DNA from: a virus
Length of the DNA stretch: 64,000 nt
Direction: 5' to 3' (one strand)
IMG/VR virus record: IMGVR_UViG_3300007523_000006
Coordinates: 53,345 to 117,344 of that record
Position numbers and translations under genes: made by a program. Under the pieces are notes generated by a model. The model searched no databases, was not told the origin of the DNA, and saw only the letters and a list, made by a program, of their open reading frames with translations. Below are positions 26,598 through 46,262 of this stretch, piece after piece. Each line of letters starts with the position of its first letter. The first letter of the stretch is position 1.

Positions 26598-26687
26598 GGG
26601 AGTAAGGCGACTGCTGGTTGTGTCGCACCTGCCTGTAAAGCAGGGCCTACAAGGTAAACATCGCAGGTTCAATTCCTGCTGCTCCCA
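26598..26687 (+). tRNA. tRNA-Tyr (GTA)
   Basis: Acceptor GGGAGTA/TGCTCCC, D stem GCGA/TCGC, anticodon stem CCTGC/GCAGG with loop CTGTAAA, long variable arm as expected for bacterial Tyr, T stem GCAGG/CCTGC with TTCAATT. CCA is not encoded. Confidence 0.93.
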
Positions 26688-26759
26688 CTGTGTACGTCAG
26701 ATTTATTGTTGCGTCCTCACTCTTGTAGTGCGGAGGCAACTAATGAAAGAATAACAAAC

Positions 26760-26831
26760 GGATCGGTAGCTGAGATGGAGTATCGCTGGCCTGAAAAGCC
26801 GGAGACGAGGATTCGAGCGACTCCCGATCCA
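26760..26831 (+). tRNA. tRNA-Phe (GAA), degenerate arms
   Basis: Acceptor GGATCGG/CCGATCC is perfect; anticodon stem CTGGC/GCCGG with loop CTGAAAA (GAA). D stem pairs poorly and the T stem GAGGA/GACTC has two mismatches, although the T loop TTCGAGC is normal. Either a relaxed phage tRNA or decaying. Ends 12 bases before the AlkB-like start. Confidence 0.6.
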
Positions 26832-26843
26832 CTGAAAGGAACA

Positions 26844-27404
26844 ATGATGGAACCGATTTATTTGCCATCTGCTGGCAACGATATGAGCAGAGTGGTTAAC
26901 TCTATTTTCGATGAAACGAAGGGTCTTGAATGGCTGACCGAGAGGTCTGCCCGGAAAGAATACTTCATGTCCACGAAAGACAGAGAGTATAGCTACGGGA
27001 ACAGACATCAAGGCGACGTAATGTACAGAAGCAAGCCATTCAGTTTTTTAGTGGGACAGTTTATGGAGTACATAAACGAAACACAGAAATCTGAATTCAA
27101 TGTTTGTTTTCTGAACCGCTACGAAAACGAACAACAGCACCTTGGATGGCACGCTGATGATTTTCCGGGAATGAGAGCCGATCAGTCAATCGCCGTGTTG
27201 TCGTTGGGAGCAGAACGGGAAATATGGTGGAAGGAAAAATCCTTCAAAGGAATTATTCCACCAGAAAATAAACAACTGTTGGAACACGGCAGCATATGGA
27301 TTATGCCTGTTGGATTTCAAGATGTTTATCTTCACAAAATTCCAAAACATGGAAAGCCTTGTGGAGAAAGGATCAGTTTGACATTCAGAAGTTTTGTTGA
27401 TTGA
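26844..27404 (+). CDS. AlkB-like 2-oxoglutarate/Fe(II) dioxygenase
   Basis: 186 aa. 'LGWHADDFPGM' gives the HxD pair, 'DVYLHKIPKH' the distal His, and 'CGERISLTFRSF' the 2-oxoglutarate-binding Arg. 'NRYENEQQHLGWH' is typical of AlkB relatives, which reverse alkyl lesions on DNA or RNA by oxidative demethylation. ATG after AAAGGA. It sits inside the tRNA cluster, so tRNA or RNA repair is as likely as DNA repair; inference only. Confidence 0.88.
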   Translation: MMEPIYLPSAGNDMSRVVNSIFDETKGLEWLTERSARKEYFMSTKDREYSYGNRHQGDVMYRSKPFSFLVGQFMEYINETQKSEFNVCFLNRYENEQQHLGWHADDFPGMRADQSIAVLSLGAEREIWWKEKSFKGIIPPENKQLLEHGSIWIMPVGFQDVYLHKIPKHGKPCGERISLTFRSFVD

Positions 27405-27501
27405 CGGTAGAAGTCTGTATGTTGTCCACCGGCTTGCCGAGTTCAACGGGACTCTGAGCTAATGACTCAGACGAAAGATTGATGCTCCGATCAACAAAAA
27501 T

Positions 27502-27575
27502 GGCACGGTGATGCAATTTGGCAGACATCTCACGCTTAGAACGTGGGTTCTGTGGGTTCGAGTCCCACCCGTGTC
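27502..27575 (+). tRNA. tRNA with Leu anticodon (TAG), short variable loop
   Basis: Acceptor GGCACGG/CCGTGTC (one G-U), D loop with GG, anticodon stem TCACG/CGTGG, loop CTTAGAA, 5-base variable loop GTTCT, T stem GTGGG/CCCAC with TTCGAGT, discriminator A. Bacterial Leu tRNAs normally have a long variable arm; this one is class I in shape. CCA not encoded. Confidence 0.82.
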
Positions 27576-27592
27576 ACTTTCCTGGAAAACAA

Positions 27593-27677
27593 GGGTTCTG
27601 TTCCTCATGCCTGACTGTAAATCAGGTGACAAAAAATTTTGAGGCGGCTGTCGAGGGGTTCAACTCCCTCAGAACCC
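27593..27677 (+). tRNA. tRNA-Tyr-like (GTA) without a normal D arm
   Basis: Acceptor GGGTTCT/AGAACCC (27593-27599, 27671-27677), anticodon stem CCTGA/TCAGG with loop CTGTAAA, T-type stem GAGGG/CCCTC with an 8-base loop. Only about 10 bases lie between acceptor and anticodon stem, too few for a D arm; CCTCA there can pair with TGAGG in the long variable region. May be non-functional or a tRNA-like RNA. Confidence 0.5.
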
Positions 27678-27717
27678 ACTTCGGCTTTACAGCCGAATTT
27701 GATGGTGATAGAATCAT

Positions 27718-27793
27718 GCCCAGGTGATGCAACCTTCGGTAGACATCCGATACTCAAAATATCGGTTTTACGGGTTCGAGTCCCGTCCTGGGT
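27718..27793 (+). tRNA. tRNA with Leu anticodon (CAA), short variable loop
   Basis: Acceptor GCCCAGG/CCTGGGT (first pair G-U), D arm with GG, anticodon stem CGATA/TATCG, loop CTCAAAA, variable loop GTTTT, T stem ACGGG/CCCGT with TTCGAGT, A73. Class I shape, like the tRNA at 27502. Confidence 0.82.
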
Positions 27794-27810
27794 ACTTTGC
27801 GGAGAATGTG

Positions 27811-28341
27811 ATGGAAGAGAAATGCACGGAGTTGACTCTCGAACAATGTGAATTTGCTTGCAAGATGGTTTGCCAGTGGATGAATATTTGCGAGGACAAT
27901 AAGCGTGGATCAAGTTCGGCTGATGTCGATCATTCTGCCCTTTTGCGAAGGATGTTGATGGGTGGGACGGTTCATAAAAATCCTCCACCAAAAAGATTCA
28001 GTTATCCTTGTTGGGGATTGGTTGAACAAGAAGAGATCGAAATCCAAGACATGCACGAATATGACATAGACATTGAAGGCATGAAAGGAACTGTGGTTGT
28101 CGATCAACATCGTGAATACGAATGGGTGGATAAAGAAAATAAAATCATCAAACACACACGATTGGGCATTGAGTATCAATATTCCGAACGTGAAGTAACA
28201 CCAGATGCCAGACGTTTACGAAAGGGTTTGAACCCCGAAGACCATAAATACACTGGTAAATTTTTGAAGAGATTGAATGATCCACCAACAGGAAAAGAAG
28301 AAGTGTGGAAAATGCAAGTGAGTGGCTTTTGTTCAGGATGA
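27811..28341 (+). CDS. Hypothetical protein, 176 aa
   Basis: Not recognised. Cys-containing helical N-terminus (residues 5-28), then an acidic and aromatic mixed region. ATG after GGAG, 17 bases behind a tRNA. Not obviously linked to translation. Confidence 0.6.
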   Translation: MEEKCTELTLEQCEFACKMVCQWMNICEDNKRGSSSADVDHSALLRRMLMGGTVHKNPPPKRFSYPCWGLVEQEEIEIQDMHEYDIDIEGMKGTVVVDQHREYEWVDKENKIIKHTRLGIEYQYSEREVTPDARRLRKGLNPEDHKYTGKFLKRLNDPPTGKEEVWKMQVSGFCSG

Positions 28342-28495
28342 ACATCAGGCTGACCCCGGTAGCGTAACTCGCCAATGATCGGTAAGTAACATCATCAAGG
28401 AAGATGAAACCACTAAGGAATAAAATGATGAAAAATAATCACGAAAGTTTGGGTAGCGTCTTTTAAGTGCATTCCGCACTTAGGAGAATCGCTAC

Positions 28496-28948
28496 ATGGC
28501 AAAAAAAAGATGGTTCTCGGCATTCCTTCGGTATCCGAGAACAACACAAGAACTAAGAGCAAACCAAGACCGCAATGATCCCTATGTCCGTGGAAAGAGA
28601 CGAAACCTTCCCACGGCATGGGACGATCGGTTTGTTCGCAAGCAAAAATCATGGAAATATCTCGGTCGAGATCATCAATACCGAGAACAAGGTCATGGTT
28701 ACGAGTGGCATGAATTCCAATACTCGTGGCGTGATACTGAACGGAGAATGATCGCCAGAACCATCATGGACTGGCTGGAACGACTTGGATGCTTCTACGA
28801 AACGATTCGTGGCGGCTTCCGTTGGTTTGGACCAGCATGGTGGATCAAAGGTCATTGTCGCTGTTGTTATACACAATTGATTTCTGACACCCAATCCGAA
28901 GAGTTCGGAGATTGGTGTCCAAACCCGGACTGTTGCTTCCTTAACTAA
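28496..28948 (+). CDS. Hypothetical Arg/Trp-rich protein with zinc-like cysteines, 150 aa
   Basis: Unrecognised. Very rich in Arg, Trp and Tyr; the C-terminus carries 'HCRCCYTQ' and 'DWCPNPDCCFLN', which could bind zinc. AGGAG precedes the ATG. The 154-base gap before it (28342-28495) holds small inverted repeats and no clear gene. Confidence 0.6.
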   Translation: MAKKRWFSAFLRYPRTTQELRANQDRNDPYVRGKRRNLPTAWDDRFVRKQKSWKYLGRDHQYREQGHGYEWHEFQYSWRDTERRMIARTIMDWLERLGCFYETIRGGFRWFGPAWWIKGHCRCCYTQLISDTQSEEFGDWCPNPDCCFLN

Positions 28949-29025
28949 GAGAAAAACCATGAACAAATTCACTCAAATCCTTGGACTCATCAAACCTATT
29001 ACCCAAACCCATTATGGAGGGAACG

Positions 29026-29325
29026 ATGAGAAGGTGGAACGAGGATTACAAGATCACTCTGCGTGAGTGGAAAAAGCACCGTCGCTCTCATGTTGAGAGT
29101 AACAAAAGCTGGATAAATCGCATCGGAGTCAGCGCCTATGTCGTTGATTGTGAGCGTGATGAACAAAAAGGTCGATTCCGTAAGAAAGACGCTTTCGATT
29201 GTGGCAATACGCAGTGCAGAATTTGTCACAGCGACAAGTATCCCAAGCGGGAAAAACACGAACACGAATTGAAGTCCGATGTGGACTTCAAAGAACAACT
29301 CAAAGAGTTGCGTGGTGAAGAGTAA
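29026..29325 (+). CDS. Small basic zinc-finger-like protein, 99 aa
   Basis: Arg/Lys-rich N-terminus followed by 'DCGNTQCRICHSDKYPKR', a C-x4-C-x2-C-H cluster that could bind zinc and RNA. ATG after GGAGGG; the longer frame from 28981 lacks a ribosome site. It sits between tRNA genes, so an RNA-binding role is possible, inferred only from charge and place. Confidence 0.6.
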   Translation: MRRWNEDYKITLREWKKHRRSHVESNKSWINRIGVSAYVVDCERDEQKGRFRKKDAFDCGNTQCRICHSDKYPKREKHEHELKSDVDFKEQLKELRGEE

Positions 29326-29359
29326 AAGAAGACGAAGGTTTGAAAAAGCCTTCGTTTGA

Positions 29360-29435
29360 GTCCAAGTAGGCAAACCTCCGGCAAAGCCGCCAGATCGAGA
29401 GTCTGGTGTTTGTGGGTTCGACTCCCACCTTGGAC
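29360..29435 (+). tRNA. tRNA with Leu anticodon (GAG), short variable loop, C33
   Basis: Acceptor GTCCAAG/CTTGGAC perfect, D stem GGC/GCC with GG loop, anticodon stem CCAGA/TCTGG, loop TCGAGAG, variable loop TGTTT, T stem GTGGG/CCCAC with TTCGACT, A73. Position 33 is C instead of the near-universal U, so the anticodon reading (GAG) is less certain. Confidence 0.72.
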
Positions 29436-29513
29436 ATTTTCTAAATCCTGTTCAACAATCAACGAGAATTGGGAGTGTCAGACAATGCAGTTAGAAAACG
29501 GCAGTTAGAAAAC

Positions 29514-29586
29514 GGCTCAGTAGGCAATCGGCAGACCACCCAGGCTTAAACCCAGGGATGCTGTGAGTTCAAATCTCACCTGAGCC
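29514..29586 (+). tRNA. tRNA with Leu anticodon (TAA), short variable loop
   Basis: Acceptor GGCTCAG/CTGAGCC, anticodon loop CTTAAAC closed by a stem CCAGG/CCAGG with one central A-A mismatch, 6-base variable loop, T stem GTGAG/CTCAC with TTCAAAT, A73. D arm short. Preceded by a direct repeat of AGTTAGAAAACGGC (29489-29515). Confidence 0.7.
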
Positions 29587-29602
29587 ACTTGATTTTTAAT
29601 AC

Positions 29603-29683
29603 GGCTTTGTGGTGAAATTGGCAAACGCACAGCACTCAAAATGCTGCGTCGAAAGACTTGTGGGTTCGAGTCCCACCAAAGCC
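29603..29683 (+). tRNA. tRNA-Leu (CAA), canonical long variable arm
   Basis: Acceptor GGCTTTG/CAAAGCC, anticodon stem CAGCA/TGCTG, loop CTCAAAA, variable arm with CGTC/GACT-type stem, T stem GTGGG/CCCAC with TTCGAGT, A73. CCA not encoded. Confidence 0.94.
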
Positions 29684-29802
29684 ACTGTTTCGATTTCTGG
29701 ATCTGGCTCTTACTCGTTGTGAGTAGAAACACCTTTTTTTGGTGGGGTTATAGAAGTCAAACCTCCAACGGTGATCTCGTAAAGATCACAGGAGAAAGTA
29801 AA

Positions 29803-30975
29803 GTGAAGAAAGTCCACATCAATGTCGGAACGATTGGTCACATTGACCACGGGAAGACGACTCTGACAGCAGCAATTCTCGCTGTTCAGTCCGAGAAGGG
29901 TTACGCAAAAAAGAAAGCATACGGCGACATCGCCAAGGGCGGCACCGTTCGTGACGTTACCAAAACGGTAACGATCACCACGTCGCACGTTGAGTATGAG
30001 ACGGATACCCGTCACTATGCTCACATTGACTGCCCCGGTCACGCCGACTATGTAAAAAATATGATTACCGGGGCTGCTCAAATGGACGGCGCTGTATTGC
30101 TCGTCAATGCAGCAGACGGTCCTATGCCTCAGACGAAAGAGCATATTCTGCTCGCTCGTCAGGTGGGCGTGCCGGATATTGTAGTATTCCTCAATAAGTG
30201 CGATCTTGTCAAAGACGAAGAATTGCTGGAACTGGTCGAGATGGAAACAAGAGACTTGCTGACGAAGTATGGCTTCGACGGCGAGAAGACTCCGTTTATC
30301 CGTGGAGCAGCAAAACCTGCCTTGGATAATCCTGCTGATCCCGCAGCAAGCAAGTGTATTGTAGAATTGTTGGCGGCTCTGGATTCTTATATTCCTGACC
30401 CCAGCCGTTCTATCGACCGTCCCTTCTTGATGCCCGTCGAAGGTGTTCACAATATCGAAGGTCGTGGCTGCGTAGTCACGGGCAAGATCGAGCAAGGAAC
30501 CATCACGGTCGGAACCAAAGTTGAAATCCTTGGGTTGACTGATATTCTGGAGTCAGTTGTCACCAGCGTCGAGGCTTTCAATAAGCAACTGGAATATGGA
30601 GAAGCTGGACAGAATGTCGGTTTGCTGCTGAGAGGCATCAAGGCCGATCAAGTTCAGCGTGGACAGGTTGTGGCACAACCACGAAGCATCAAGCCTCACA
30701 CCAAGTTCAAGAGCGAAATTTACGTCTTGGGCAAGGATGAGGGCGGGCGTCACACCCCGATCTTCAATGGTTACAAGCCACAGTTCTTCCTCAGAACTAC
30801 CAACGTCACCGGCCTTGTCCAAATGCCGGAAGGAATTGAGTTGGTCATGCCGGGCGAGAACACTTGCCTGTTTATCACCCTGGATAAGCCGATTGCTATC
30901 GAAAAAGGTAGTCACTTCGCCATTCGTGAGGGTGGTATGACAGTCGGTTCTGGCGTCGTGACGGAATTGCTGTAA
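29803..30975 (+). CDS. tuf: Translation elongation factor Tu
   Basis: 390 aa, full length, GTG start after GGAGAAAG; the in-frame sequence upstream runs through tRNA-Leu and is not coding. G1 'GHIDHGKT', G3 'DCPGH' and G4 'NKCD' are intact, domains 2 and 3 complete ('[13 protein letters not shown]', '[11 protein letters not shown]', '[12 protein letters not shown]'). EF-Tu brings aminoacyl-tRNA to the ribosome as a GTP complex. The switch-I region reads '[16 protein letters not shown]' instead of the usual 'PEEKARGITIN', the form I recall from Planctomycetota; with '[16 protein letters not shown]' this points to a planctomycete source. It lies directly after the tRNA cluster and ends in a promoter-overlapping terminator. 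Confidence 0.96.
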
Positions 30976-30992
30976 AACGGCTGTAAAACGGC

Positions 30993-31021
30993 TGTAAAGC
31001 AAAGCGAAAGCGTGGTATAAT
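30993..31021 (+). promoter_or_regulatory. Promoter nested in the tuf terminator
   Basis: TGTAAA (30993-30998), 17-base spacer ending GCGTGG, perfect TATAAT (31016-31021). The -10 box runs from the end of the 5' arm into the loop of the terminator hairpin. Confidence 0.8.
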
Positions 31022-31045
31022 CAAATACCACGCTTTCGCTGCAAC
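31004..31045 (+). terminator. Hairpin after tuf, overlaps promoter
   Basis: GCGAAAGCGTGGTA/TACCACGCTTTCGC (31004-31017, 31026-31039), a perfect 14-base inverted repeat. No long T-run follows, so termination efficiency is uncertain; by analogy with 10741 I take it as a terminator. GGCTGTAAAAC is also directly repeated at 30970-30997. Confidence 0.6.
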
Positions 31046-31083
31046 GGTTAAGAAATTTCCATTGGCACGCACCAGGCATAAAC

Positions 31084-31365
31084 ATGCGTCGAGAAACAAC
31101 CATCATCGGCATGATAACAATCATTTTCATGATTGTCGTTTTCTTCATTTCAAGTGCCACTAATTCCAGCGATCAAGCCAAAATACAAAAATGGGCTAGT
31201 GACAACAAATATGTCATAGTCACATCTGAACGGTGTTTTTTCTACTCCGGCCCTTATTGGACGACTAAAAACACTCGGATTTACAAAGTCGATTTGGAAA
31301 ATAACAAAACCCATTGGTTCCGATTCGGACTTTGGGGAACCGACACCGACATCGAGGAATATTGA
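31084..31365 (+). CDS. Small membrane-anchored protein, 93 aa
   Basis: One N-terminal transmembrane segment (about residues 7-25, 'IIGMITIIFMIVVFFI'), then an 65-residue polar domain with alternating aromatic strands. Probably anchored with its C-terminus outside. Function unknown. First gene behind the 30993 promoter; its TGA overlaps the next ATG. Confidence 0.65.
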   Translation: MRRETTIIGMITIIFMIVVFFISSATNSSDQAKIQKWASDNKYVIVTSERCFFYSGPYWTTKNTRIYKVDLENNKTHWFRFGLWGTDTDIEEY

Positions 31366-31736
31366 TGCGAAGACAAAGACCCACCGCTTGTGAAATCCGA
31401 AAACAAATGAACACTGCCGATAGCACCCACCAAAGGTGTGTGTCGGATTATTCATTTGGTAAATTCAAAATGAAACCGGGAGAAGTAATTCTTACTTGGC
31501 ACGACAAAGAAAACGACAAGCACAATAGAATGGTATTGACCCACCGTTCAACTGGCGTCCAAATATTTGGATATATCAAGCCAGGATACAACCCATCCAA
31601 AAAAGAGATCAGCGAAATGCGAAAGCATTTTATCAAAAAGAATTTGTCTTTACTTGAAAGCATGACGAGGCGACACCTTAGAGCGTGCATGGCAAGTCAG
31701 TATGGACCCATTCCAAAAGGACAGTTCGATGAGTAG
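31365..31736 (+). CDS. Hypothetical protein, 123 aa
   Basis: Not recognised. Basic; 'FKMKPGEVILTWHDKEN' and 'GVQIFGYIKPGYNPSKKEISEMRK' (in part) suggest a small beta-then-helix fold. ATG overlaps the preceding TGA. Confidence 0.6.
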   Translation: MRRQRPTACEIRKQMNTADSTHQRCVSDYSFGKFKMKPGEVILTWHDKENDKHNRMVLTHRSTGVQIFGYIKPGYNPSKKEISEMRKHFIKKNLSLLESMTRRHLRACMASQYGPIPKGQFDE

Positions 31737-31962
31737 AAATCAAATCAAACGATGTGCCTGTGGGCTACCGCTTCATTATCGAGACAAAACCAAAGAAGCG
31801 GAAGTTCAAGGAGAGATCGACAAGCTCGGAGAATGGATACCATTCAGCATTGGTCAAAGTCGATATTTGGTGCAAAGACACTACAAAGAACTGCACGGCC
31901 TTAATCCAAATGAAGTTCCTGCTTTAATGAAGCAAGGAATTATCAGAATAAACAAGGATTAA
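31729..31962 (+). CDS. Hypothetical protein, 77 aa
   Basis: Not recognised. A 'RCACGLPLHY' Cys pair at the N-terminus, then a helical segment. ATG overlaps the previous TAG by eight bases. In the gap that follows (31963-32152) only a 16-codon frame MNTYSNELMQKL... is seen, perhaps a gene remnant. Confidence 0.6.
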   Translation: MSRNQIKRCACGLPLHYRDKTKEAEVQGEIDKLGEWIPFSIGQSRYLVQRHYKELHGLNPNEVPALMKQGIIRINKD

Positions 31963-32152
31963 AGTCGATATGAACACCTACTCCAACGAACTCATGCAAA
32001 AACTGACAAATCAGTTTTAGGCGACATTTTACAATTGGTGCCAAACATTTGGAAGTTGCTAGTTTTTCGACCTTTTCATGAATTGGCAATAGCATCAATC
32101 ACAGACAATGTTGCATCATCAGATATTGTCGCTAGAGCTTTGGGCAATTTTT

Positions 32153-32464
32153 TTAGCTCCCAAGATTTTCTTTGTTGGTTGGCAATAATTCAGACGCCCA
32201 ATTATACATTTCAGATAATAAATCTCCAAATTGTTTGGCTCGACTTTGATTACAAAAATGTAAAGGATAATTGCTATGAGGAAAATGCCAATTAGAACAA
32301 CCATCCCACTTAATGTGTCCAATTAACAATGGATCTTCATCAGAAACTTCTTGATTTCCTTGGTAAATAAAAAAATTAACAATATGTCCATTTTTATGCA
32401 AGTCAGCCAACACCACATAAGGATCTTCTGATCCTTGAAAGAACTCTCTTAATGTATTCGACAT
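32153..32464 (-). CDS. Hypothetical protein, 103 aa, opposite strand
   Basis: Not recognised by name. 'IGHIKWDGCSNWHF' and 'AKQFGDLLSEMYNWASELL' look like a conserved small alpha/beta fold. One of two minus-strand genes inserted in a plus-strand region, suggesting a separately acquired pair. Confidence 0.6.
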   Translation of the reverse strand: MSNTLREFFQGSEDPYVVLADLHKNGHIVNFFIYQGNQEVSDEDPLLIGHIKWDGCSNWHFPHSNYPLHFCNQSRAKQFGDLLSEMYNWASELLPTNKENLGS

Positions 32465-32502
32465 TTCATTGTCTTTCTAAATTTATTTTATTGTCTAATG
32501 GC

Positions 32503-32721
32503 TCATACAACAATTCTTACGTTTCCGGGTGGCTTTCTAGGAGCCATCTCTCCCTGTCCCAAAATCATTACAGAGTGTCCAACTTGTGTTAGGTGAAACT
32601 CTAAAGTCACATCCTCAACCATCCAAAGTCCCATGCCAGTTCCATTACAGTGTGGACAAGGTCCATCAACCAAACCACTGCAATTACAATTTCCACAAGA
32701 TTTCTTTACGAAAAAATCCAT
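32503..32721 (-). CDS. DnaJ-like zinc-finger protein, 72 aa
   Basis: 'CGNCNCSGLVDGPCPHCNGTGM' (in part CPHCNGTGM) has the CxxC..G.G spacing of the DnaJ cysteine-rich domain. I start at MDFFVKK, six bases after GGAG; two earlier Mets are possible. No J domain. Function unknown. Confidence 0.55.
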   Translation of the reverse strand: MDFFVKKSCGNCNCSGLVDGPCPHCNGTGMGLWMVEDVTLEFHLTQVGHSVMILGQGEMAPRKPPGNVRIVV

Positions 32722-32784
32722 ATCCATCTCCGCCACAAGTGTAACAAAAATCACATGGCACAAAATCGCTCAGTGGAAGAAAGA

Positions 32785-33036
32785 ATGAACATTTTGGCTC
32801 TTATCCCAATTGGTGGGATTGCCGGTATGCCGCCATATACGCCACATGCAGGATCAGGAAAAATCGCCTGTGCTGGCTGTGGTATAGCTTGTTGGATCGG
32901 TCCTCGTCAAACCGTGATGAAGCTCGAAAAGCCTGAACTCCCGGCATTGTGCATGTTGTGTGCGTGCAAAGAAATACAAAAACAAAAAGAATCAGACGAA
33001 GAAGTAACTGCATCCGTGATTCCATTAGGTGATTGA
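32785..33036 (+). CDS. Hypothetical Cys-rich protein, 83 aa
   Basis: 'IACAGCGIACWIG' and 'LCMLCACKE' could form a zinc or Fe-S site. Start ATG 32785 after GAAAGA; an earlier ATG at 32755 overlaps the divergent gene. Its TGA overlaps the next start region. Confidence 0.55.
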   Translation: MNILALIPIGGIAGMPPYTPHAGSGKIACAGCGIACWIGPRQTVMKLEKPELPALCMLCACKEIQKQKESDEEVTASVIPLGD

Positions 33037-33689
33037 ATATGCAAAGAGATTATAGTTGGAAGCCATCCTGGAGTCCTATTCACAAAGAATGTGACGTTCA
33101 CCCTCATGTCCCTGCGGAACGTGCTGATTTATTTGAGGTCGCCGATGGCGGCTCTACTGAATATGAAGTCTTAAATTGGCTTCATTCCACAATCCGAGTA
33201 TTGAAGCCACAACTGGTTCTTGAAACTGGTGCGTGGGAGGGTTTCGGAACAACCGCCCTAGCTCATGCTTGCAAACTCAATGGATTCGGCAAGGTGCATT
33301 CTCTTGAAGTTCTGCCGCCACAATGCGTGCGACTTCAGACGGTTCTTGAAGAAGAACACTTGCTTAAATGGGTTGAAGTGCATTGCGTAGATTCGCTTGA
33401 ATTCTTGCAACAATCTAATATTATCTTCGATATTGGATTCTTTGATAGCCTGACCGAGATCAGGCCCATCGAATGCGAGATAATGCTCAACAAAGGCACG
33501 TTGAGAAACCTTGCTGTCTTCCACGACACATCGCCTCATCGGTCTGAATCCGCTCCTGATTGGACCAGCACAGAAACTCAAAACACATACAGAGAAAAGG
33601 TCTTGGCCTTAGCCAAACATCCCCGATGTACTGGCTACTATGATTCCCCACTATCCAGAGGATTCATGGCCTTGTTCTTAAAAGGCTAA
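33033..33689 (+). CDS. Class I SAM-dependent methyltransferase-like protein
   Basis: 218 aa. '[19 protein letters not shown]' (about residues 67-85) is motif I for S-adenosylmethionine; 'VHSLEVLPP' the acidic motif II; '[11 protein letters not shown]' motif IV region. Arrangement resembles the cephalosporin-hydroxylase/sugar methyltransferase type. Substrate unknown; nearby glycosyltransferase suggests a glycan. Overlaps the previous gene by four bases. Confidence 0.7.
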
Positions 33690-33690
33690 C

Positions 33691-34028
33691 ATGAAAAACG
33701 TAGTTGTAATGTTCCCATATCCATCGGGTGCCGGTTTACACTTGGGGCATTACTATAATTATGCCATTATCGACAGCTATTGTCGATTTCTGCGATATGA
33801 GGGCGAAGAAGTCTTTCAGCCTTTTGGATATGACGCATTCGGACTGCCTGCCGAGATCAAGGCTTGAAGAATTCAGTACGAAATTATTTGTTCTTTTGGA
33901 AAGTGAACAAGGTGGTCAGCACATTCATGACCTTCTATAACGACAACAAAGACAAAAAAGTCTCGCCCGCCAACGCCAAAGAGATTGTCCAGTTGCTTCA
34001 AAATTTTGCACCTGGATTTAATCTTTGA
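33691..34028 (+). pseudogene. leuS: Leucyl-tRNA synthetase remnant, internal deletion
   Basis: 33691-33867 encodes 58 aa, '[20 protein letters not shown] ... [11 protein letters not shown]', the N-terminal LeuRS block with its HIGH motif as HLGH, ending at TGA. After a one-frame shift (from about 33864) an open stretch continues 'SVRNYLFFWKVNKVVSTFMT ... LLQNFAP' to TGA at 34026-34028, resembling the anticodon-binding region near the end of LeuRS. About 600 residues of catalytic, editing and KMSKS sequence are missing. It cannot charge tRNA; it may be dead or a residual peptide. Confidence 0.75.
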
Positions 34029-34744
34029 AAATATCGTTCTGCACAACTTGTATGGGCAGGGTTCATCATCTAATGAGAACCCTGCCCATAAATATTCATG
34101 TCGCTCCAGATTGCGAATTTGTGTTGCTTAACTATGGCAGCAAAGATGGAATGCACGAGTGGGTCCGAGACAATATGCGTCCTTGGATAAATCGAGGAAC
34201 CATCAAGTATTATAGAACTCAGCTTCCTGAATACTTCGTGGCGACACATGCCAAAAACATTGCACATCGCCAAGCGACCGGCGATATTCTTTGCAATTTA
34301 GACGCAGACAATTTCTTGATTGACGGCTTTGTTGAATTGGTTAAAAAGACCATGAGCGACAAACAAAGCATTATGACTGCTCCTATATTTGATATGTTCA
34401 ATATGTCGGGCAGTTGCGGAAAGATAGCAGTTCATCGAGAGCATTTCTATAGCGTAAATGGATACAACGAAGACATCAATTTGGGATGGGGGTGGGATGA
34501 TATTGATTTTGAATTACGTGCAGCCATGCACAACAAATTGAAATACGCTCAAACTCCCGTGAAGTTTTGCCGAGTAATAGACCACGACGAATCAGATCGA
34601 GTCAAGAACTTTCGCACCAAAAACTTGAAGGATTCCCAACGGACAAATGGGGAACTGTTGGAAACGGTGAAAAATACTAGAAATTACGTTGTCAACAAAA
34701 ACAGAGAGTGGGGAGTTGCATTAGATTTATCCAGTGATATATAA
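34025..34744 (+). CDS. Glycosyltransferase family 2-like
   Basis: 239 aa. 'ISFCTTCMGRVHHL' opens the GT-A fold; 'ATGDILCNLDADNF' holds the DxD; 'GYNEDINLGWGWDDIDFELR' (in part WGWDDIDF) is the acceptor-side acidic motif. TTG start at 34025, since the first strand begins there; the ribosome site is poor. Likely modifies virion or host glycans. Confidence 0.75.
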   Translation: MKISFCTTCMGRVHHLMRTLPINIHVAPDCEFVLLNYGSKDGMHEWVRDNMRPWINRGTIKYYRTQLPEYFVATHAKNIAHRQATGDILCNLDADNFLIDGFVELVKKTMSDKQSIMTAPIFDMFNMSGSCGKIAVHREHFYSVNGYNEDINLGWGWDDIDFELRAAMHNKLKYAQTPVKFCRVIDHDESDRVKNFRTKNLKDSQRTNGELLETVKNTRNYVVNKNREWGVALDLSSDI

Positions 34745-34747
34745 GAC

Positions 34748-34972
34748 ATGATTAAATTCAAAGACTGGATGCAGACAAGAGAAGCCAAACTCCGAGAAAT
34801 GGGGAGTGGTCCATATATTGGAAACTGCACTGACACCAGTGATTATCAAGTAATTGGTGCTTGTAGCGATCAAAATTCCGAAGAAAAGAACAAGGCGTAT
34901 CGAAAAGGTGGCGTAGACCACAAAAAAGTCCACAAGCATTCCGACAAGATCAGATCAAAAGTCGGTATATAA
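34748..34972 (+). CDS. Candidate internal head protein, 74 aa
   Basis: Begins MIKFKDWMQTREA, a capsid-targeting-like N-terminus, then a polar Lys/His/Ser-rich chain ending 'RSKVGI'. Small, basic and polar, as T4 internal proteins often are. Function unknown. Confidence 0.6.
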   Translation: MIKFKDWMQTREAKLREMGSGPYIGNCTDTSDYQVIGACSDQNSEEKNKAYRKGGVDHKKVHKHSDKIRSKVGI

Positions 34973-34975
34973 GGT

Positions 34976-35395
34976 ATGATGACGTTCAAGGAATTCGTGG
35001 GATCGCAAGAAGTACAGCCGCAGGTGCAACAGCCTCAAGCGGCTGGTTCTCAGCAATCATCCAAATGGAAGGCCACAAAAGATGAAATTGTGGGCTACTG
35101 GAAGAACTTACGTCCCGACACACCCGTCCAAATGCGAGCCATTGATTACACCCATAAGGGATCAACATATGGCGAAGACGGAATGCGACTAACAGGCAGT
35201 CCGCAGTTTATTGCATCAATTTTAGCCAGAATGAAAGAGTTGTTGACTTACGAAACTCCAACAACCAAACTCGCCGTTACATATCGACAAACAGAGTCCC
35301 CCAGCAAGATGGCAATGGGACAAAGTAAAACTTCCTACGTCTTTTACGTTGCTGCTCGTCAACGTGGCGGCAAAACTCAAATCGCACCCAACTAG
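34976..35395 (+). CDS. Candidate internal head protein, 139 aa
   Basis: Begins MMTFKEFVGSQE, capsid-targeting-like; Gln/Pro-rich stretch (residues 13-30), then a compact basic domain. Four bases behind the previous gene with the same N-terminal type, so likely co-expressed for head assembly. Confidence 0.6.
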   Translation: MMTFKEFVGSQEVQPQVQQPQAAGSQQSSKWKATKDEIVGYWKNLRPDTPVQMRAIDYTHKGSTYGEDGMRLTGSPQFIASILARMKELLTYETPTTKLAVTYRQTESPSKMAMGQSKTSYVFYVAARQRGGKTQIAPN

Positions 35396-35397
35396 AC

Positions 35398-35425
35398 TTG
35401 ATTTTATCTTTCGTGATTGTATACT
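35398..35425 (+). promoter_or_regulatory. Possible promoter
   Basis: TTGATT (35398-35403), 16-base spacer, TATACT (35420-35425). It lacks CGTGG. It lies 48 bases before the GTG at 35473. Confidence 0.5.
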
Positions 35426-35472
35426 CATAACTTGTGTTGAGAACCAACCAAGGCCCCAAAGGAGAGTTTACA

Positions 35473-35925
35473 GTGAGTATGAAAATTGCGTGGACGATTG
35501 CCGGAATTGTCGGAATTTCCGCTCTGTGTGTGGGATCAATGACGTGGCACGCCTGGAGTGTCCAGAAGGAAAACCAACGACTCTCGCTGGTGAATTACAT
35601 CTATGTTGCGGAGCATCGTATTCTCAAGGATGAAATCTCTGAACTTGCATCTAAGCCAACATACGATCAGGGATATAAAGACGCTCTGATCCGCATCGGC
35701 GGACCACAAGTCCCTGGTGCATACCAAGATGGCTGGGACGACGCTCAGAAGCTCTGTGGTGCGGAAAACAATTACGCAGACGGGTATCACGCTGCAATCC
35801 AACAGTTTGGATATACTAAGACTACAACAATGGCTCGTTGGTTGGTTCCCGAACCAAAAGACAAGGCTATTGCTGCGGATAAGTCCAACAAGGAAGGCAT
35901 CACGCCTGCTAAATTGGAAAAGTAA
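35473..35925 (+). CDS. Membrane-anchored protein with YxxGYxDA-type repeats, 150 aa
   Basis: N-terminal transmembrane helix (about residues 4-22), then a polar region with three related segments 'YDQGYKDALI', 'YQDGWDDAQK' and 'YADGYHAAIQ'. GTG start six bases after GGAGAG; ATG two codons later is the alternative. Function unknown. The RNA at 35930-36191 follows directly. Confidence 0.65.
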   Translation: MSMKIAWTIAGIVGISALCVGSMTWHAWSVQKENQRLSLVNYIYVAEHRILKDEISELASKPTYDQGYKDALIRIGGPQVPGAYQDGWDDAQKLCGAENNYADGYHAAIQQFGYTKTTTMARWLVPEPKDKAIAADKSNKEGITPAKLEK

Positions 35926-35929
35926 TCCA

Positions 35930-36191
35930 AACCGCTATAGAAAGCATTGGCTACAGTAAATCGGGTGATTTAGGGAAAGGTACGTCCTTTCCTTTGGGGA
36001 AACAAAGACAGCCAGGATGTTGGCCTAGAAGTAGCCAACATTCAAAGAGTAGGGTTACACAGGGACTTCCTGTTAACGGACCCTTTTGGTGTAATAACAC
36101 ACTGGCCGAGCCACCCAACACTCGACACTGGCAATGCTGGTGCCTGGAGAGCATGTCGCCGACGAAGGCTTAGGCGACATGCTCATTTTTT
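35930..36191 (+). ncRNA. Structured RNA mimicking the 23S rRNA GTPase-associated centre
   Basis: 36006-36110 reads as helices 42-44 of bacterial 23S rRNA (E. coli about 1046-1112). The 19-mer AGACAGCCAGGATGTTGGC is shared with E. coli; the A1067 loop CTAGAAGTA and the A1095 loop GTAATA are kept in order, closed by GCCAG/CTGGC (36011-36015, 36103-36107) and followed by CGAG. Between AAAGAGT and GGTGTAATA sits an extra self-folding segment (36051-36087, AGGG...CCCT). Flanks fold into hairpins and a strong terminator closes the RNA. No protein frame. In ribosomes this domain binds L11 and the L10-L12 stalk and activates EF-Tu and EF-G. Confidence 0.8.
36149..36191 (+). terminator. Terminator of the rRNA-mimic RNA
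   Basis: GAGCATGTCGCC/GGCGACATGCTC (36149-36160, 36173-36184), 12-base loop, then ATTTTTT. Confidence 0.92.
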
Positions 36192-36206
36192 GAAAAGAAA
36201 GATGAA

Positions 36207-36389
36207 ATGATAGCTTGTATTTGCGGTGGATTTTTGGAACTAGGTTACATCCTAGTGATGGCAATTATTTCTATTTCGGGAGCAATATTTGGCACCAACT
36301 GGTACAATACAGCACGATATAAAAAGTACATAAAATACAAAGACAAACACAAAGGCTGTGGTTGCGACTGTCACAAAGAAGACGAGTAG
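36207..36389 (+). CDS. Small membrane protein with Cys/His tail, 60 aa
   Basis: One or two hydrophobic segments (residues 2-30), then a basic stretch and a metal-binding-like 'CGCDCHKEDE' tail. Sits between the rRNA-mimic RNA and two tRNAs. Function unknown. Confidence 0.6.
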   Translation: MIACICGGFLELGYILVMAIISISGAIFGTNWYNTARYKKYIKYKDKHKGCGCDCHKEDE

Positions 36390-36392
36390 TGC

Positions 36393-36473
36393 GGCCCTGT
36401 GGTGGAATTGGAATACACATGGGACTTAAAATCCCACGCCGAAAGGATTGCGGGTTCGAGTCCCGCCAGGGCT
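36393..36473 (+). tRNA. tRNA-Leu (TAA), canonical long variable arm
   Basis: Acceptor GGCCCTG/CAGGGCT (first pair G-U), anticodon stem TGGGA/TCCCA, loop CTTAAAA, class II variable arm, T stem GCGGG/CCCGC with TTCGAGT, A73. CCA not encoded. Confidence 0.93.
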
Positions 36474-36507
36474 ACGTTTTACAAGATGCCTAAAACGTGG
36501 TAAAACT

Positions 36508-36587
36508 GGCCGAGTGGTGGAATGGCATACACGATGGTTTTAGGAACCATTGCCGCAAGGCTTGCAGGTTCAAGTCCTGTCTCGGTC
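36508..36587 (+). tRNA. tRNA-Leu (TAG), canonical long variable arm
   Basis: Acceptor GGCCGAG/CTCGGTC, anticodon stem ATGGT/ACCAT, loop TTTAGGA, variable arm GCC/GGC, T stem GCAGG/CCTGT with TTCAAGT, A73. A promoter-like string TTTACA-17-TAAAAC with CGTGG (36478-36506) ends just before it, but its start would fall inside the tRNA. Confidence 0.92.
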
Positions 36588-36616
36588 ACTAATGAGGAAT
36601 GAGGAATGAGGATACG

Positions 36617-37111: not shown

Positions 37112-37211
37112 AAATTAAGCCTATTGATTCAACAAAAAAGAAGAAAAGCCTTTGGGCGTCGAAGTCATCTACTTGAAAAGAGAATCAGACGGCAACTGGA
37201 AAACCTTATGA
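37108..37211 (+). CDS. 34-aa protein made by apparent -1 frameshift at A_AAA_AAG
   Basis: Frame 0 starts at ATG 37108 (overlapping the previous TGA) and ends after 22 codons at TGA 37176. At 37134-37140 the slippery heptamer A AAA AAG lies exactly in frame; a -1 shift continues as 'EEKPLGVEVIYLKRESDGNW' to a TGA at 37209-37211 that overlaps the ATG of the deacetylase. The balanced overlaps at both ends suggest that the shifted product is the real one. Function unknown. Decay by one-base insertion is the alternative. Confidence 0.5.
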
Positions 37212-38092
37212 AAGTTTTTTACAACGAAAATCAGTCAGTGGAAAATAATCCAAGCATTTCGCCAAGTGCCAAGAAGCCCACGGCAGTATTGAAGTCGTGG
37301 CAGGAAATTGTGCCTGTCGAGATCATGCCAGTTGTTCCTGTAACCGTTGCAGACTTGGAGTTGGTGCATGACAGAGAATACGTTAATGATGTTATCTCTT
37401 GTCGCATAGAAAATGGGTTCGGCAACAAACTGAAAACCATTGCTGATTCTTTGCTGTGGACAAATGGTAGTTTTCTTAGTGCTGCTAAATACGCAGTTGA
37501 AAACAAAACAAATACAGTTAGCCCAACAAGTGGTTTTCACCATGCAGGATATTATGCTGGTAGTGGATTTTGTACATTTAATGGACTTATGTTGGCGGCA
37601 ATAACGCTCAAAAATGCCATGCTGGTCAATCGAGTTGCCATTGCTGATTTAGATATGCACTATGGCAATGGCACGGATTGCATCCTTGAGCAGTTATCCA
37701 TTCGAGGAATGAAAGATTTCATCTCTCATTATACTTTTGGCGGGCATTTAGACACTGTTGATCGTGGAGCTAAAAGTCGGCTTGCTTTTGGCCAAGCATA
37801 CACAAAACTTTTGCCCGACATTATCACTAGGTTGCTTGATGATGCAGATGTTCTGTTCTATCAGGCTGGGGCTGACCCTCATGTGAATGATCCATATGGC
37901 GGCGTTCTCACGACTGAAGAGTTAAAAGAAAGAGATCGCATTGTTTTTACAATTGCGAAAGAAAGAGGAGTGCCGGTTGTTTGGAATTTAGCAGGCGGGT
38001 ATCAAACCGACTTTTCTAAAGTCTTGGAAATCCACAACAACACAGCTTTGTTGCACGTTGAGATATTCGAGAATGCACCGGAAACCTTGTGA
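37208..38092 (+). CDS. Histone-deacetylase-superfamily amidohydrolase
   Basis: 294 aa. 'TSGFHHAGYYAGSGFCTFN' holds the catalytic His pair, 'VAIADLDMHYGNGT' the zinc Asp and His (the usual HH here is HY), and 'YQAGADPHVNDPYG' the second zinc Asp. Bacterial members remove acetyl or acyl groups from polyamines, acetoin-pathway or protein lysines. ATG chosen where homology begins, overlapping the frameshift product's stop. Next to an ATP-grasp glutathionylspermidine-synthetase-like gene, so a polyamine substrate is possible (inference). Confidence 0.85.
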   Translation: MKVFYNENQSVENNPSISPSAKKPTAVLKSWQEIVPVEIMPVVPVTVADLELVHDREYVNDVISCRIENGFGNKLKTIADSLLWTNGSFLSAAKYAVENKTNTVSPTSGFHHAGYYAGSGFCTFNGLMLAAITLKNAMLVNRVAIADLDMHYGNGTDCILEQLSIRGMKDFISHYTFGGHLDTVDRGAKSRLAFGQAYTKLLPDIITRLLDDADVLFYQAGADPHVNDPYGGVLTTEELKERDRIVFTIAKERGVPVVWNLAGGYQTDFSKVLEIHNNTALLHVEIFENAPETL

Positions 38093-39805: not shown

Positions 39806-40027
39806 ATGGCAGTTGAAACAGATATTACAAAGCGTTGGGAACAAGGGATAGATCACCATCCCAAAAGCATCGCTTTGTTCAAAAAACTAGCAGAAATCGA
39901 CTTCAAATTCGGTGGAGATTTCTTCGACTGGTCATCAGGTGGCGATGGAGACAATGGCGAACATTTAATGTACGAAATGGACATTATGTTCGAGAAAGAA
40001 GATGCTGAAATAGGAGCTTCATCATGA
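39806..40027 (+). CDS. Hypothetical acidic protein, 73 aa
   Basis: ATG after GGAGG overlapping the preceding stop region. Acidic; 'FKKLAEIDFKFGGDFFDW' then a Gly/Asp stretch. Such small proteins often precede glutathionylspermidine-synthetase-like genes; possible partner. Confidence 0.6.
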   Translation: MAVETDITKRWEQGIDHHPKSIALFKKLAEIDFKFGGDFFDWSSGGDGDNGEHLMYEMDIMFEKEDAEIGASS

Positions 40028-41169
40028 AGCGACACACAACCGATCTTAGGCATGATTGGAAAAAGACCATTGAAGGTCAGGGAATGTTATTTCATACATT
40101 TGATGGCGATATTTATTGGGACGAGTCAGCATACTACGAGTTAAACAGTCCTGAAGTAGACACCATAGAGGCGGCTACTTACGAACTGAATGATCGTTGT
40201 CTTGAAGCTGTTCAACACGTCATCGACAATGATCTGTTAGATGCTTTCTTGATCCCGCCCGAATTCCATCAGTTTATCCAAGACAGTTGGGAGAGAGACG
40301 AACACACCATTTATGGTCGGTTTGACTTTTCCTATGACGGAAAAACCCAACCAAAGATGTTGGAGTTCAATGCCGACACGCCTACCGGCCTGATAGAAGC
40401 TGCTGTTACCCAATGGTATTGGGCAAAAGACAAGTTTCCAAATCGGAACCAATTCAACTCAATACACGAGCGGCTAATTAAGGTTTGGAAAGAACTGAAG
40501 TCCGTGACGCCAGGAGTATTGTATTTTACGGCACTCGCTGGCAATCTCGAAGATTACATGAACGTCAATTATCTTCGAGACACTGCCATCCAAGCCGGGT
40601 GGGATACTGAATATATTGACATTGAAAACATCGGATGGAACGAAGGTCGCCGTACATTCACCGACCTGAACGAAAATCCAATACAGACATGCTTCAAGCT
40701 GTATCCTTGGGAATGGATGCAGACCGACGAGTTTGGCAGAAAACTATTCCTCAAGACCACCAAATGGCTTGAGGCTCCGTGGAAGGCAATCCTTAGCAAC
40801 AAGGCCATTCTGCCTATATTGTGGGAGTTGTTTCCCGATCATCCAAACTTATTAGAAGCATCGTTTCAACCAATTCGCACAAAACCTTACGTTCAGAAGC
40901 CAATTCTGAGTCGTGAGGGAGCTAATGTGCAAATATTTGAGCATGGCGAATTGCTGCTTAAAACTGATGGTCCTTACGATGGACCATGTGTATATCAACA
41001 ACTATGGGAACTTCCCAACTTTGATGGCAATCACGCCTGCATTGGTAGTTGGTTGGTCAACGGCTGGGCTTGTGGAATAGGCATTCGAGAAGACAAAACC
41101 ATTGTAACGGGGAACCTGAGTCGGTTCGTACCGCACATTTTCGGTGTTCGACCAAAATACGGGAGTTAA
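40024..41169 (+). CDS. Glutathionylspermidine synthase-like ATP-grasp enzyme
   Basis: 381 aa. 'RFDFSYDGKTQPKMLEFNAD' (substrate/ATP site), 'TPTGLIEAA', 'KPILSREGANVQIF' and 'IGSWLVNGWACGIGIRED' (in part) are the family's conserved blocks. It would form an amide bond using ATP, in GspS joining glutathione to spermidine; in the stand-alone bacterial and phage forms the substrate is unknown. Overlaps the previous gene by four bases. Confidence 0.88.
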   Translation: MKRHTTDLRHDWKKTIEGQGMLFHTFDGDIYWDESAYYELNSPEVDTIEAATYELNDRCLEAVQHVIDNDLLDAFLIPPEFHQFIQDSWERDEHTIYGRFDFSYDGKTQPKMLEFNADTPTGLIEAAVTQWYWAKDKFPNRNQFNSIHERLIKVWKELKSVTPGVLYFTALAGNLEDYMNVNYLRDTAIQAGWDTEYIDIENIGWNEGRRTFTDLNENPIQTCFKLYPWEWMQTDEFGRKLFLKTTKWLEAPWKAILSNKAILPILWELFPDHPNLLEASFQPIRTKPYVQKPILSREGANVQIFEHGELLLKTDGPYDGPCVYQQLWELPNFDGNHACIGSWLVNGWACGIGIREDKTIVTGNLSRFVPHIFGVRPKYGS

Positions 41170-45470: not shown

Positions 45471-46262
45471 ATGCGTGCCGAAATTGTCCACGTTACGGAC
45501 CACGCTTTGTTGCGATGGAAAGAACGTGCGTCGAAAACAGGTGAAGTCAACGTAGAAGAAATCGTTCAGGCTGTAAAAGAATCCAAGGTCATCAAAAAAA
45601 ACGAACCTTTGCCTTACCCGATGCCTCGTTTAGATGGATCAGTTTACAGCTTCAATGCCGGAGTGTTGTTCATTCTCGAATCAGTAACCATTGATGAATA
45701 TCGACTCGTCACAGTTATCGCCGACGAGCCGACCTATCAACGGATTGCTCGACCGCCGAAGAAACAACTTAATCCTCGAAAGAGACAGAAATACGAGGAA
45801 GTTCAAAAGGTGCAAATCGACATTCCTTGCTTTGAAAGTTTCATCGAAGAACGTCAATGGTTGACCGACGAGAAACGAAAACTCGAAAGTGAACTGGCAA
45901 CAACAGCGAAGAAATCTTCCACTCGCAAAGAAATATTGAAGGTGTGGGGCGAGATTGAAGCCCGACTCACCGAGAACAAACCTCAATATCTCGAAGAGCG
46001 GAAAAAATCAGGAGACGGATATGTTGACTATGGTTCTCTTCTTTTGCAAATTATCAGAGAGTTAAAAGAAATACGCTCTGAACAACAGGAATTACGTAAC
46101 CTAATCGAAGGCTCCAATGGACAACAACCGAGATCACCGAGCAATCGGAAAAAAGCTAGACCTCTTCATGTTCAGCCCTCTATCGCCGGGTTGTCCGATC
46201 TGGCTCCCGAAGGGAGTTGTGCTTTATCAGTCTTTGCTGAACCGCATTCGTCAACTCAATGA
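45471..46262 (+). CDS. Hypothetical protein between rnpB and thrS, 263 aa
   Basis: 'VTDHALLRWKERA' at the N-terminus and a beta-rich first 100 residues, then long charged helices (115-230). No named family. The last 49 codons overlap the start of the synthetase gene in another frame; the compositional change there (Pro/Ser-rich) suggests that the frame continues past the functional end. Start codon follows the sequestered AAGGAG. Confidence 0.65.
   Translation: MRAEIVHVTDHALLRWKERASKTGEVNVEEIVQAVKESKVIKKNEPLPYPMPRLDGSVYSFNAGVLFILESVTIDEYRLVTVIADEPTYQRIARPPKKQLNPRKRQKYEEVQKVQIDIPCFESFIEERQWLTDEKRKLESELATTAKKSSTRKEILKVWGEIEARLTENKPQYLEERKKSGDGYVDYGSLLLQIIRELKEIRSEQQELRNLIEGSNGQQPRSPSNRKKARPLHVQPSIAGLSDLAPEGSCALSVFAEPHSSTQ

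Follow-up and report, generated by a model that had tools for sequence, protein, structure and literature searches.

Putative stand-alone phage RNAs built on the GTPase-associated centre of 23S rRNA form a widespread family

The window analysed in the present study is a stretch of 64,000 nucleotides, bases 53,345–117,344 of the 117,344-base virus record IMGVR_UViG_3300007523_000006. A putative RNA at positions 35930–36191 of the window (plus strand) is preceded by a 163-amino-acid reading frame that ends at 35925 and followed by two tRNA-Leu genes on the same strand as the RNA, tRNA-Leu (taa) at 36393–36475 and tRNA-Leu (tag) at 36508–36589. Six tRNAs were predicted by ARAGORN within 26598–36589, five of them tRNA-Leu, and eight by the Rfam tRNA model. 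An EF-Tu-like gene lies upstream on the plus strand at 29641–30975; its true start is probably further downstream, as the first start of the frame overlaps a tRNA. Beyond the RNA, the window encodes a histone-deacetylase-like protein (37124–38089), a glutathionylspermidine synthase (40024–41166) and a protein with a class II aminoacyl-tRNA synthetase domain and an anticodon-binding domain (46117–47337).

The sequence-only reading of this DNA had proposed that 36006–36110 follows helices 42–44 of bacterial 23S rRNA, the GTPase-associated centre (GAC), and had asked for a check by covariance model. This segment matched positions 1078–1159 of the Rfam LSU_rRNA_bacteria model with 32.9 bits and an E-value of 4.4e-8 (1-kb search, 4227 families). 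The score is below the gathering score of 50, which suits full-length rRNA, and the match covers ~80 of the 2925 model positions. The 19 identical bases, both signature loops and ACTGGCCGAG are all present in the window sequence as claimed. The Rfam scan of the window gave no other 23S rRNA match above threshold; the remainder of the molecule, expected of a functional 23S rRNA, is absent, as had been stated. The analysis thus confirmed 35930–36191 as a putative stand-alone phage non-coding RNA built on helices 42–44. We use E. coli 23S numbering for the GAC residues.

The predicted fold of the 262-nt stretch, from just after the upstream frame to the T-run of the terminator, had an energy of −97.2 kcal/mol and was more stable than all of 200 dinucleotide shuffles (z −5.15). 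The RNA is conserved along its length with two diverged versions, L001 and L011. At the 5′ end, CTATAG (35935–35940) and CTACAG (35951–35956) form a hairpin (35935–35956) with one A·C mismatch in the window, which reads CTGTAG/CTACGG in L011 and L001. The GAC domain is enclosed by an outer stem (35961–36125) of TCGGGTG (35961–35967) and CACTCGA (36119–36125), paired in the predicted fold and present as TCGAGTG/CACTCGA in L011 and L001. An internal hairpin, GGGAAAGG/CCTTTCCT (35973–35993), also appears in the predicted fold and differs in sequence among the relatives. Following the LSU match and the family alignment described below, the domain itself begins with the 5′ strand of helix 42 (36006–36016), which carries the same kink-turn sequence, AGACAGCCAGG, as 23S rRNA, and continues with helix 43 and its 1067 loop (36017–36041; A1067 at 36027 and U1072 at 36032) and the junction 1082–1090 (36042–36050; A1088 at 36048 and U1090 at 36050), whose positions are invariant or covarying. 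The insert between U1090 and G1091 consists of AGGG (36051–36054) paired with CCCT (36081–36084), an inner hairpin and then TTTG. Its true span is 36051–36088; the sequence-only reading had recognized the insert and made it one base too short, 37 bases ending at 36087. The helix 44 hairpin GT-GTAATA-AC (36089–36099) follows, with A1095 at 36093 and with A1101 at 36099 able to pair with U1090, and the 3′ strand of helix 42, CACTGGCCGAG (36100–36110), completes the domain.

Downstream of the GAC part, a 3′ hairpin, CACTGGCAATGCTGGTG (36126–36142), is more evident in L011; in the window, the fold of lowest energy gives some of its bases other partners. The dedicated terminator that had been claimed was found as a terminator-like hairpin, GAGCATGTCGCC/GGCGACATGCTC (36149–36184), with a T6 run (the whole element at 36149–36191), seen in the sequence, in the relatives and in the predicted fold. 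A simple terminator scan did not report this hairpin because its 12-nt loop exceeds the limit of 8 in the scan. A promoter scan near the RNA gave nothing above chance. Two pairings put forward earlier fared less well. Regular pairing in helix 43 (GATGTTGGC with GCCAACATT) holds in the window but in few relatives, as it depends on position 1078 being an A, which is so in 2 of 100 relatives (3′-seeded set); in the window, A1078 permits uninterrupted pairing, a possible competitor of the native U1060·A1088 contact. The switch pairing of GTTACAC with GTGTAAT, which would hide the A1095 loop, is absent from the close relatives L001 and L011, and so is not conserved.

We then considered whether the window RNA is real. 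The same RNA was found across 300 compared bases in a second IMG/VR contig of 98,662 bases (L009). This second copy, together with the convergence of three independent seeds on one architecture (see below), argues against a join artefact. The second contig, the diverged versions in L001 and L011 and the covariation across relatives rule out an assembly chimera or host rRNA contamination in the window, an outcome that the sequence-only reading had named among its refutations.

The exact 19-base pattern retrieved 12 IMG/VR stretches, comprising seven phage RNAs, three real 23S rRNAs (L002, L005 and L010) and two chance matches (L006 and L012); the rRNAs and chance matches were left out of the family, as was L014 (Paenibacillus phage Pd_22F, MZ092003), which reads as real 23S rRNA. 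A 3′ pattern that ordinary 23S rRNA does not match recovered the same seven phage RNAs from IMG/VR and gave no match in bacterial and archaeal genome contigs. With a relaxed helix 43 (5′-half) pattern, 29 stretches were obtained. All 26 non-rRNA copies examined, the window included, had a TTTGGCGTAATAGCACAC-like 3′ half 48–249 nt downstream, and the bases flanking both halves were complementary, though their sequences differ. A search with the 3′ motif by itself retrieved at least 120 stretches from IMG/VR and 18 from genome contigs; among these and the earlier matches, the 5′ half was present at six edits or fewer in 131 of 142, at least two of which are chance (L147 and L149). A non-ribosomal motif from the insert gave 58 stretches; the GAC 3′ half follows immediately in 55, both halves are present in 48 and neither in three. 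All three seeds (5′ half, 3′ half and insert) thus led to one shared architecture. In total, 145 instances were called, of which 125 are distinct, from IMG/VR contigs, phage isolates and bacterial genome contigs; 15 loci gave no RNA call, some with the RNA cut by the end of the locus, some being variants and some chance. The search of related phage contigs suggested by the sequence-only reading therefore found the RNA in many phages with an identical insert position. The GAC RNA is a widespread phage family, larger than first noted.

The shared order is a helix 42 stem, helix 43, the junction 1082–1090, the insert, UUUGG, the helix 44 hairpin, residue 1101 (A, rarely G, and able to pair with U1090) and the return strand of helix 42. 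The insert between U1090 and G1091 is 34–365 nt long (median 147), is closed by its own stem and shares little between lineages. A second structured insert, of 20–91 nt at the 1078 bulge of helix 43, occurs in 18 of 124 RNAs (L020, L024, L029 and 15 others). Just before the GAC 3′ half, an insert hairpin of the form CACCCC-loop-GGTAAGG is found in 20 of 125 RNAs (including L015, L073 and L166), and this pattern adjoins the GAC 3′ half in 55 of its 58 IMG/VR occurrences. A sarcin–ricin-type hairpin, AGUA-C-GNRA-G-GAA, lies inside the insert of L063 and L142 in its strict form (2/125; shuffles mean 0.03), and a loose form adds L088 (3/125; mean 0.32 and maximum 2 in 60 shuffles); by sequence, the RNAs bearing it belong to one related subfamily. 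Against the LSU model, L142 gave a weak match (18.4 bits, E 0.0012) that left its sarcin–ricin-like part unmatched. L033 and L015, with inserts of 160 and 196 nt, gave no LSU match at E-values up to 1, though both halves were read directly.

To assess selection on the fold, the percentage of sequences in which two positions pair was compared, over 124 sequences, with that after re-dealing the partners 1000 times. Positions 1058 and 1080 were paired in 98% of sequences compared with 43% after re-dealing, and 1082 and 1086 in 93% compared with 56%. The helix 42 pairs 1054–1105 (99% compared with 69%) and 1051–1108 (90% compared with 42%) behaved alike, and none of the 1000 re-deals reached the observed value for any of these four pairs. 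The pair 1046–1113 was not above chance (46% compared with 39%; 59 of 1000 re-deals reached it), and pairs that never vary, such as 1087–1102, are uninformative for covariation. The first three closing pairs of the insert were formed in 100, 98 and 94% of the 125 RNAs, where 61, 59 and 45% were expected. When the sequences were grouped into 59 clusters to limit relatedness, helix 42 was paired in 75% compared with 35–44% with the partner slid, and three helix 43 and junction pairs in 93% compared with 37–67%.

The base triple 1072·(1092–1099) was C·C-G in 119, U·U-A in three and U·U-G in two of 124 RNAs, with no other combination; in the insert-seeded set (n=39) it was C·C-G in 34, U·U-A in three and mixed in two. 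We take the 1082–1086 pair, this triple, U1060 and A1088 to be tertiary signatures of the GAC, and all of them are found in the family. Identity was 84% in the GAC 5′ half (83% in 100 sequences not seeded on it) and 31% in helix 42. In the 3′-seeded set of 100 sequences, U1060, A1088, A1077, A1084, A1085 and G1087 were invariant. A1095 was kept in 24 of 24 RNAs in one comparison and in 43 of 44 in another. Position 1067 was an A in 81 of 100 3′-seeded and 35 of 39 insert-seeded sequences; to our knowledge, A1067 is near-universal in bacterial 23S rRNA. Thus the near-frozen core, a helix 42 that is variable yet paired, and the covarying pairs and triple show that the core of the phage RNA is kept under selection for the native GAC tertiary fold off the ribosome. 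The frozen core does not separate uL11 binding from other uses of the fold. These data also bear on whether the copies are merely captured or contaminating rRNA without function, or assembly chimeras. Viral collections do contain genuine 23S fragments (L002, L005, L010 and L014), but more than 100 independent copies share the same insert site, the phage-specific A1101 and the covariation, by which we consider this explanation refuted and its remaining probability negligible.

BLAST matches to the RNA were obtained in the named phages GAP32, CBB, BF, Kaldavass, six Erwinia SNUABM phages, XbC2, XaC1 and XacN1, and further in ME3, pf16, UNO-G1W1, Astolliot, Milchi and Aeromonas phage 4_4572. Both halves were read directly in pf16, 4_4572, ME3 and GAP32 (a 100% match of L067, which was itself read), and the other named phages are BLAST matches. 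The RNA occupies a gap between two annotated genes in GAP32 and lies between tRNA-Asn and tRNA-Pro in pf16, a phage of Pseudomonas putida; UNO-G1W1 is a phage of P. fluorescens. Most of the remaining BLAST matches are to entries submitted under a phage name whose matching part is host 23S rRNA by reading or by annotation, e.g. OR845016, KM209255 and MZ092003 (L014). A plasmid BLAST with the L007 RNA returned 516 records, and the 20 listed match the 55-nt GAC core only. Both halves were present in 14 of the 18 stretches from bacterial genome contigs. In the one such contig examined for context, L157 (Flintibacter muris), the RNA lies among phage genes (tail fibre, RNA ligase and methyltransferases), and a Pnkp-type RNA kinase/phosphatase/ligase-like protein (L157:2522–4711; phrog_8238) is encoded shortly downstream of it.

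A tRNA was found within 500 nt of the RNA in 71 of 125 cases, compared with 35% for random places in the same loci, and within 150 nt in 60 of 125; in 27 of 125, it was flanked by tRNAs no more than 300 nt away on either side. The 693 tRNAs of the RNA loci were all on the strand of the RNA, and 36 of 125 loci had no tRNA within the stretch examined. A called frame of at least 100 amino acids overlapped the RNA in 19 of 125. Only two neighbour families recurred in five or more loci, both homing-endonuclease-like by eye (HNH-type and GIY-YIG), one in ten loci and the other in five; ribosomal protein genes were not among the recurring neighbours, and the RNA did not show the position 5′ of such a gene expected of a ribosomal protein leader. 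RNA-bearing contigs were larger than those from a neutral 14-mer scan (median 82 kb compared with 19.5 kb; above 100 kb, 31/80 compared with 2/80; 80 listed of 120 in each set).

The kink-turn of helix 42 in 23S rRNA binds uL10–bL12. The corresponding motif, AGACARCCAGG/CACTGGYCGAG, was present in eight of 125 RNAs (the window, L001, L003, L004, L007, L008, L011 and L030), and absent from the other 117; most members of the family have a plain covarying helix in its place. The claim that the window phage encodes EF-Tu is borne out by matches to PF00009, PF03144 and PF03143, and EF-Tu is associated with the kink-turn subclass: it was found in six of 49 records, five of seven kink-turn records compared with one of 42 others (Fisher P=6e-5, which ignores kinship). 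L003 and L007 are the kink-turn records in which EF-Tu was not found, and in G005 its frame is split. The co-occurrence is partly shared descent, as identity between the EF-Tus of these phages runs from 97% (window/G001) down to about 73% (window/G003 and window/G013). Matches to the L12 C-terminal domain were detected in nine of 49 records, six over the cut-off and without a matched control, in phage proteins of the loci L169–L179 (G035, G013, G010, G025, G037, G028, G036, G042 and G032); the domain is whole in G035, G013, G010 and G025 and short in the others. L177, from the record of L121, has a weak L12-model match and is EF-Ts-like by eye, and the same phage record has an EF-Tu domain match.

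One reading of these associations is that the RNA mimics the factor-binding site and, with uL10–bL12, phage L12-like proteins and phage EF-Tu, would assemble a mini stalk, recruiting translational GTPases or stimulating them. The enrichment of EF-Tu in kink-turn records, the L12 domain matches (with the reservation on controls above) and the sarcin–ricin-type hairpin in L063, L142 and, more loosely, L088 are consistent with it. The kink-turn, however, is absent from 117 of 125 RNAs; A1067, a translation factor contact, is another base in 19 of 100; one of the nine L12 matches (G042) resembles EF-Ts by eye; the EF-Tu sharing may be common descent; and the sarcin–ricin-like part was unmatched by the LSU model. 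We therefore regard a mini stalk as improbable. A broader version, in which large phages across many hosts would own a separate GTPase docking platform, an RNP capturing uL11 and in one subclass uL10–bL12, and acting alongside the L12-like proteins and EF-Tu of the phage and, in one subfamily, a sarcin–ricin-like hairpin of the insert, appears about as improbable. Of the earlier proposal that the RNA is aimed at the ribosomal factor-binding site, a phage-borne GAC copy stands, but the aim at that site is not general and would be at best a special case.

The distribution of the RNA suggests that many large phages use a piece of the ribosome as a tool on the host protein-making machinery. Isolated 58-nt GAC fragments bind uL11, and the recognition of the GAC by uL11 is conserved across bacteria. 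By analogy, the stand-alone RNA may bind host uL11 off the ribosome (and, in the window subclass, also uL10–bL12) and so titrate the stalk-base protein, a proposal to which we give about an even chance. A constant RNA part would be expected to meet a constant host partner, which makes uL11 the best candidate; it is also the likelier common partner because most members keep only the helix 43–44 core, the uL11 site, with the kink-turn replaced. No uL11 gene was found in the 49 records, so the partner would be that of the host. The frozen core would then be a universal host interface and the variable insert a phage-specific effector or assembly domain. If the RNA is made in quantity from tRNA-array transcripts, it would capture free uL11 (and, in the window subclass, the stalk complex), and ribosomes made or repaired during infection would lack a normal stalk base. 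RelA and the stringent response depend on uL11; such uL11-dependent responses might be blunted, or factor use retuned. RelA_SpoT matches were likewise absent from the 49 records, which leaves the stringent-response link unsupported.

The position of the RNA in tRNA arrays is also relevant to a different role. The tRNAs and RNA-repair enzymes of phages are believed to act against defences that cut tRNA, and the RNA could belong to such a translation-protection kit as a decoy, offering a surrogate GAC to toxins, of the host or of rivals, that would otherwise modify or cleave the GAC site. The adjacent Pnkp-type RNA ligase in L157 and the EF-Tu and class II aminoacyl-tRNA synthetase domain encoded in the window would fit a kit of this kind, and GAC-modifying toxins exist, as Tre23 ADP-ribosylates the 23S GTPase-associated site (PMC9990079). 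The large covarying insert is not obviously needed for a decoy, and we consider this role unlikely, if a serious candidate.

The scans of the stretches with Rfam 15, which we take to contain both the ROOL and GOLLD families, gave no family other than LSU rRNA that matched the GAC RNA, and no ROOL or GOLLD match (gathering scores for some stretches and permissive E-values for others, over a subset of loci). ROOL and GOLLD are structured phage RNAs of unknown function, often found beside tRNA islands (PMC12286853); there, the length is given as 659 nt for ROOL env-120 and as above 800 nt for many GOLLDs. The shared habitat of phages and tRNA islands, together with recurrent insert hairpin modules such as CACCCC..GGTAAGG (20/125), raises the possibility that the GAC fold is a compact block of a larger ornate RNA particle of this type, with protein binding incidental. 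A scaffold would not be expected to hold the surface loop residue A1095 fixed (43/44) while inserts share little between lineages, and neither family was matched; this explanation seems to us quite unlikely.

Full-text searches of open PMC papers gave no description of a phage GAC RNA. The family was perhaps overlooked because the LSU model scores members with long inserts poorly or not at all and because searches for new RNAs tend to mask rRNA-like matches. A functional domain of rRNA kept as a separate viral gene and selected for its tertiary fold would represent a new type of virus–host interface, one of rRNA mimicry. Some of the cargo of phage tRNA arrays that is not translated would thereby be accounted for, the control of translation and stress signalling by uL11 and the stalk could be probed with a natural tool, and the stalk base would emerge as a site of conflict between phage and host.

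Compared with the GAC of 23S rRNA, the phage RNA has the same helix 43–44 sequence, 1067 and 1095 loops, base triple and 1082–1086 pair, and the window subclass also the kink-turn. It differs in that it stands alone with the rest of 23S rRNA absent, carries a 34–365-nt insert and optionally a second at 1078, and has A or G at 1101. Ribosomal protein leader RNAs, e.g. the L10 leader, imitate the binding site of a ribosomal protein outside the ribosome. The phage RNA would also be an off-ribosome mimic, but it is free-standing and often lies between tRNA genes rather than before a ribosomal protein gene. T4 rnaC and rnaD are likewise stable RNAs other than tRNAs, encoded within the tRNA cluster of a phage; no GAC sequence was seen in them on reading by eye. 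With ROOL and GOLLD the phage GAC RNA shares its habitat, whereas it is smaller (about 150–450 nt) and has a ribosomal domain at its core. Finally, phage PhiMa05 encodes uL11 (PMC13157829) and thus likewise supplies a component of the stalk base, as a protein rather than as an RNA.
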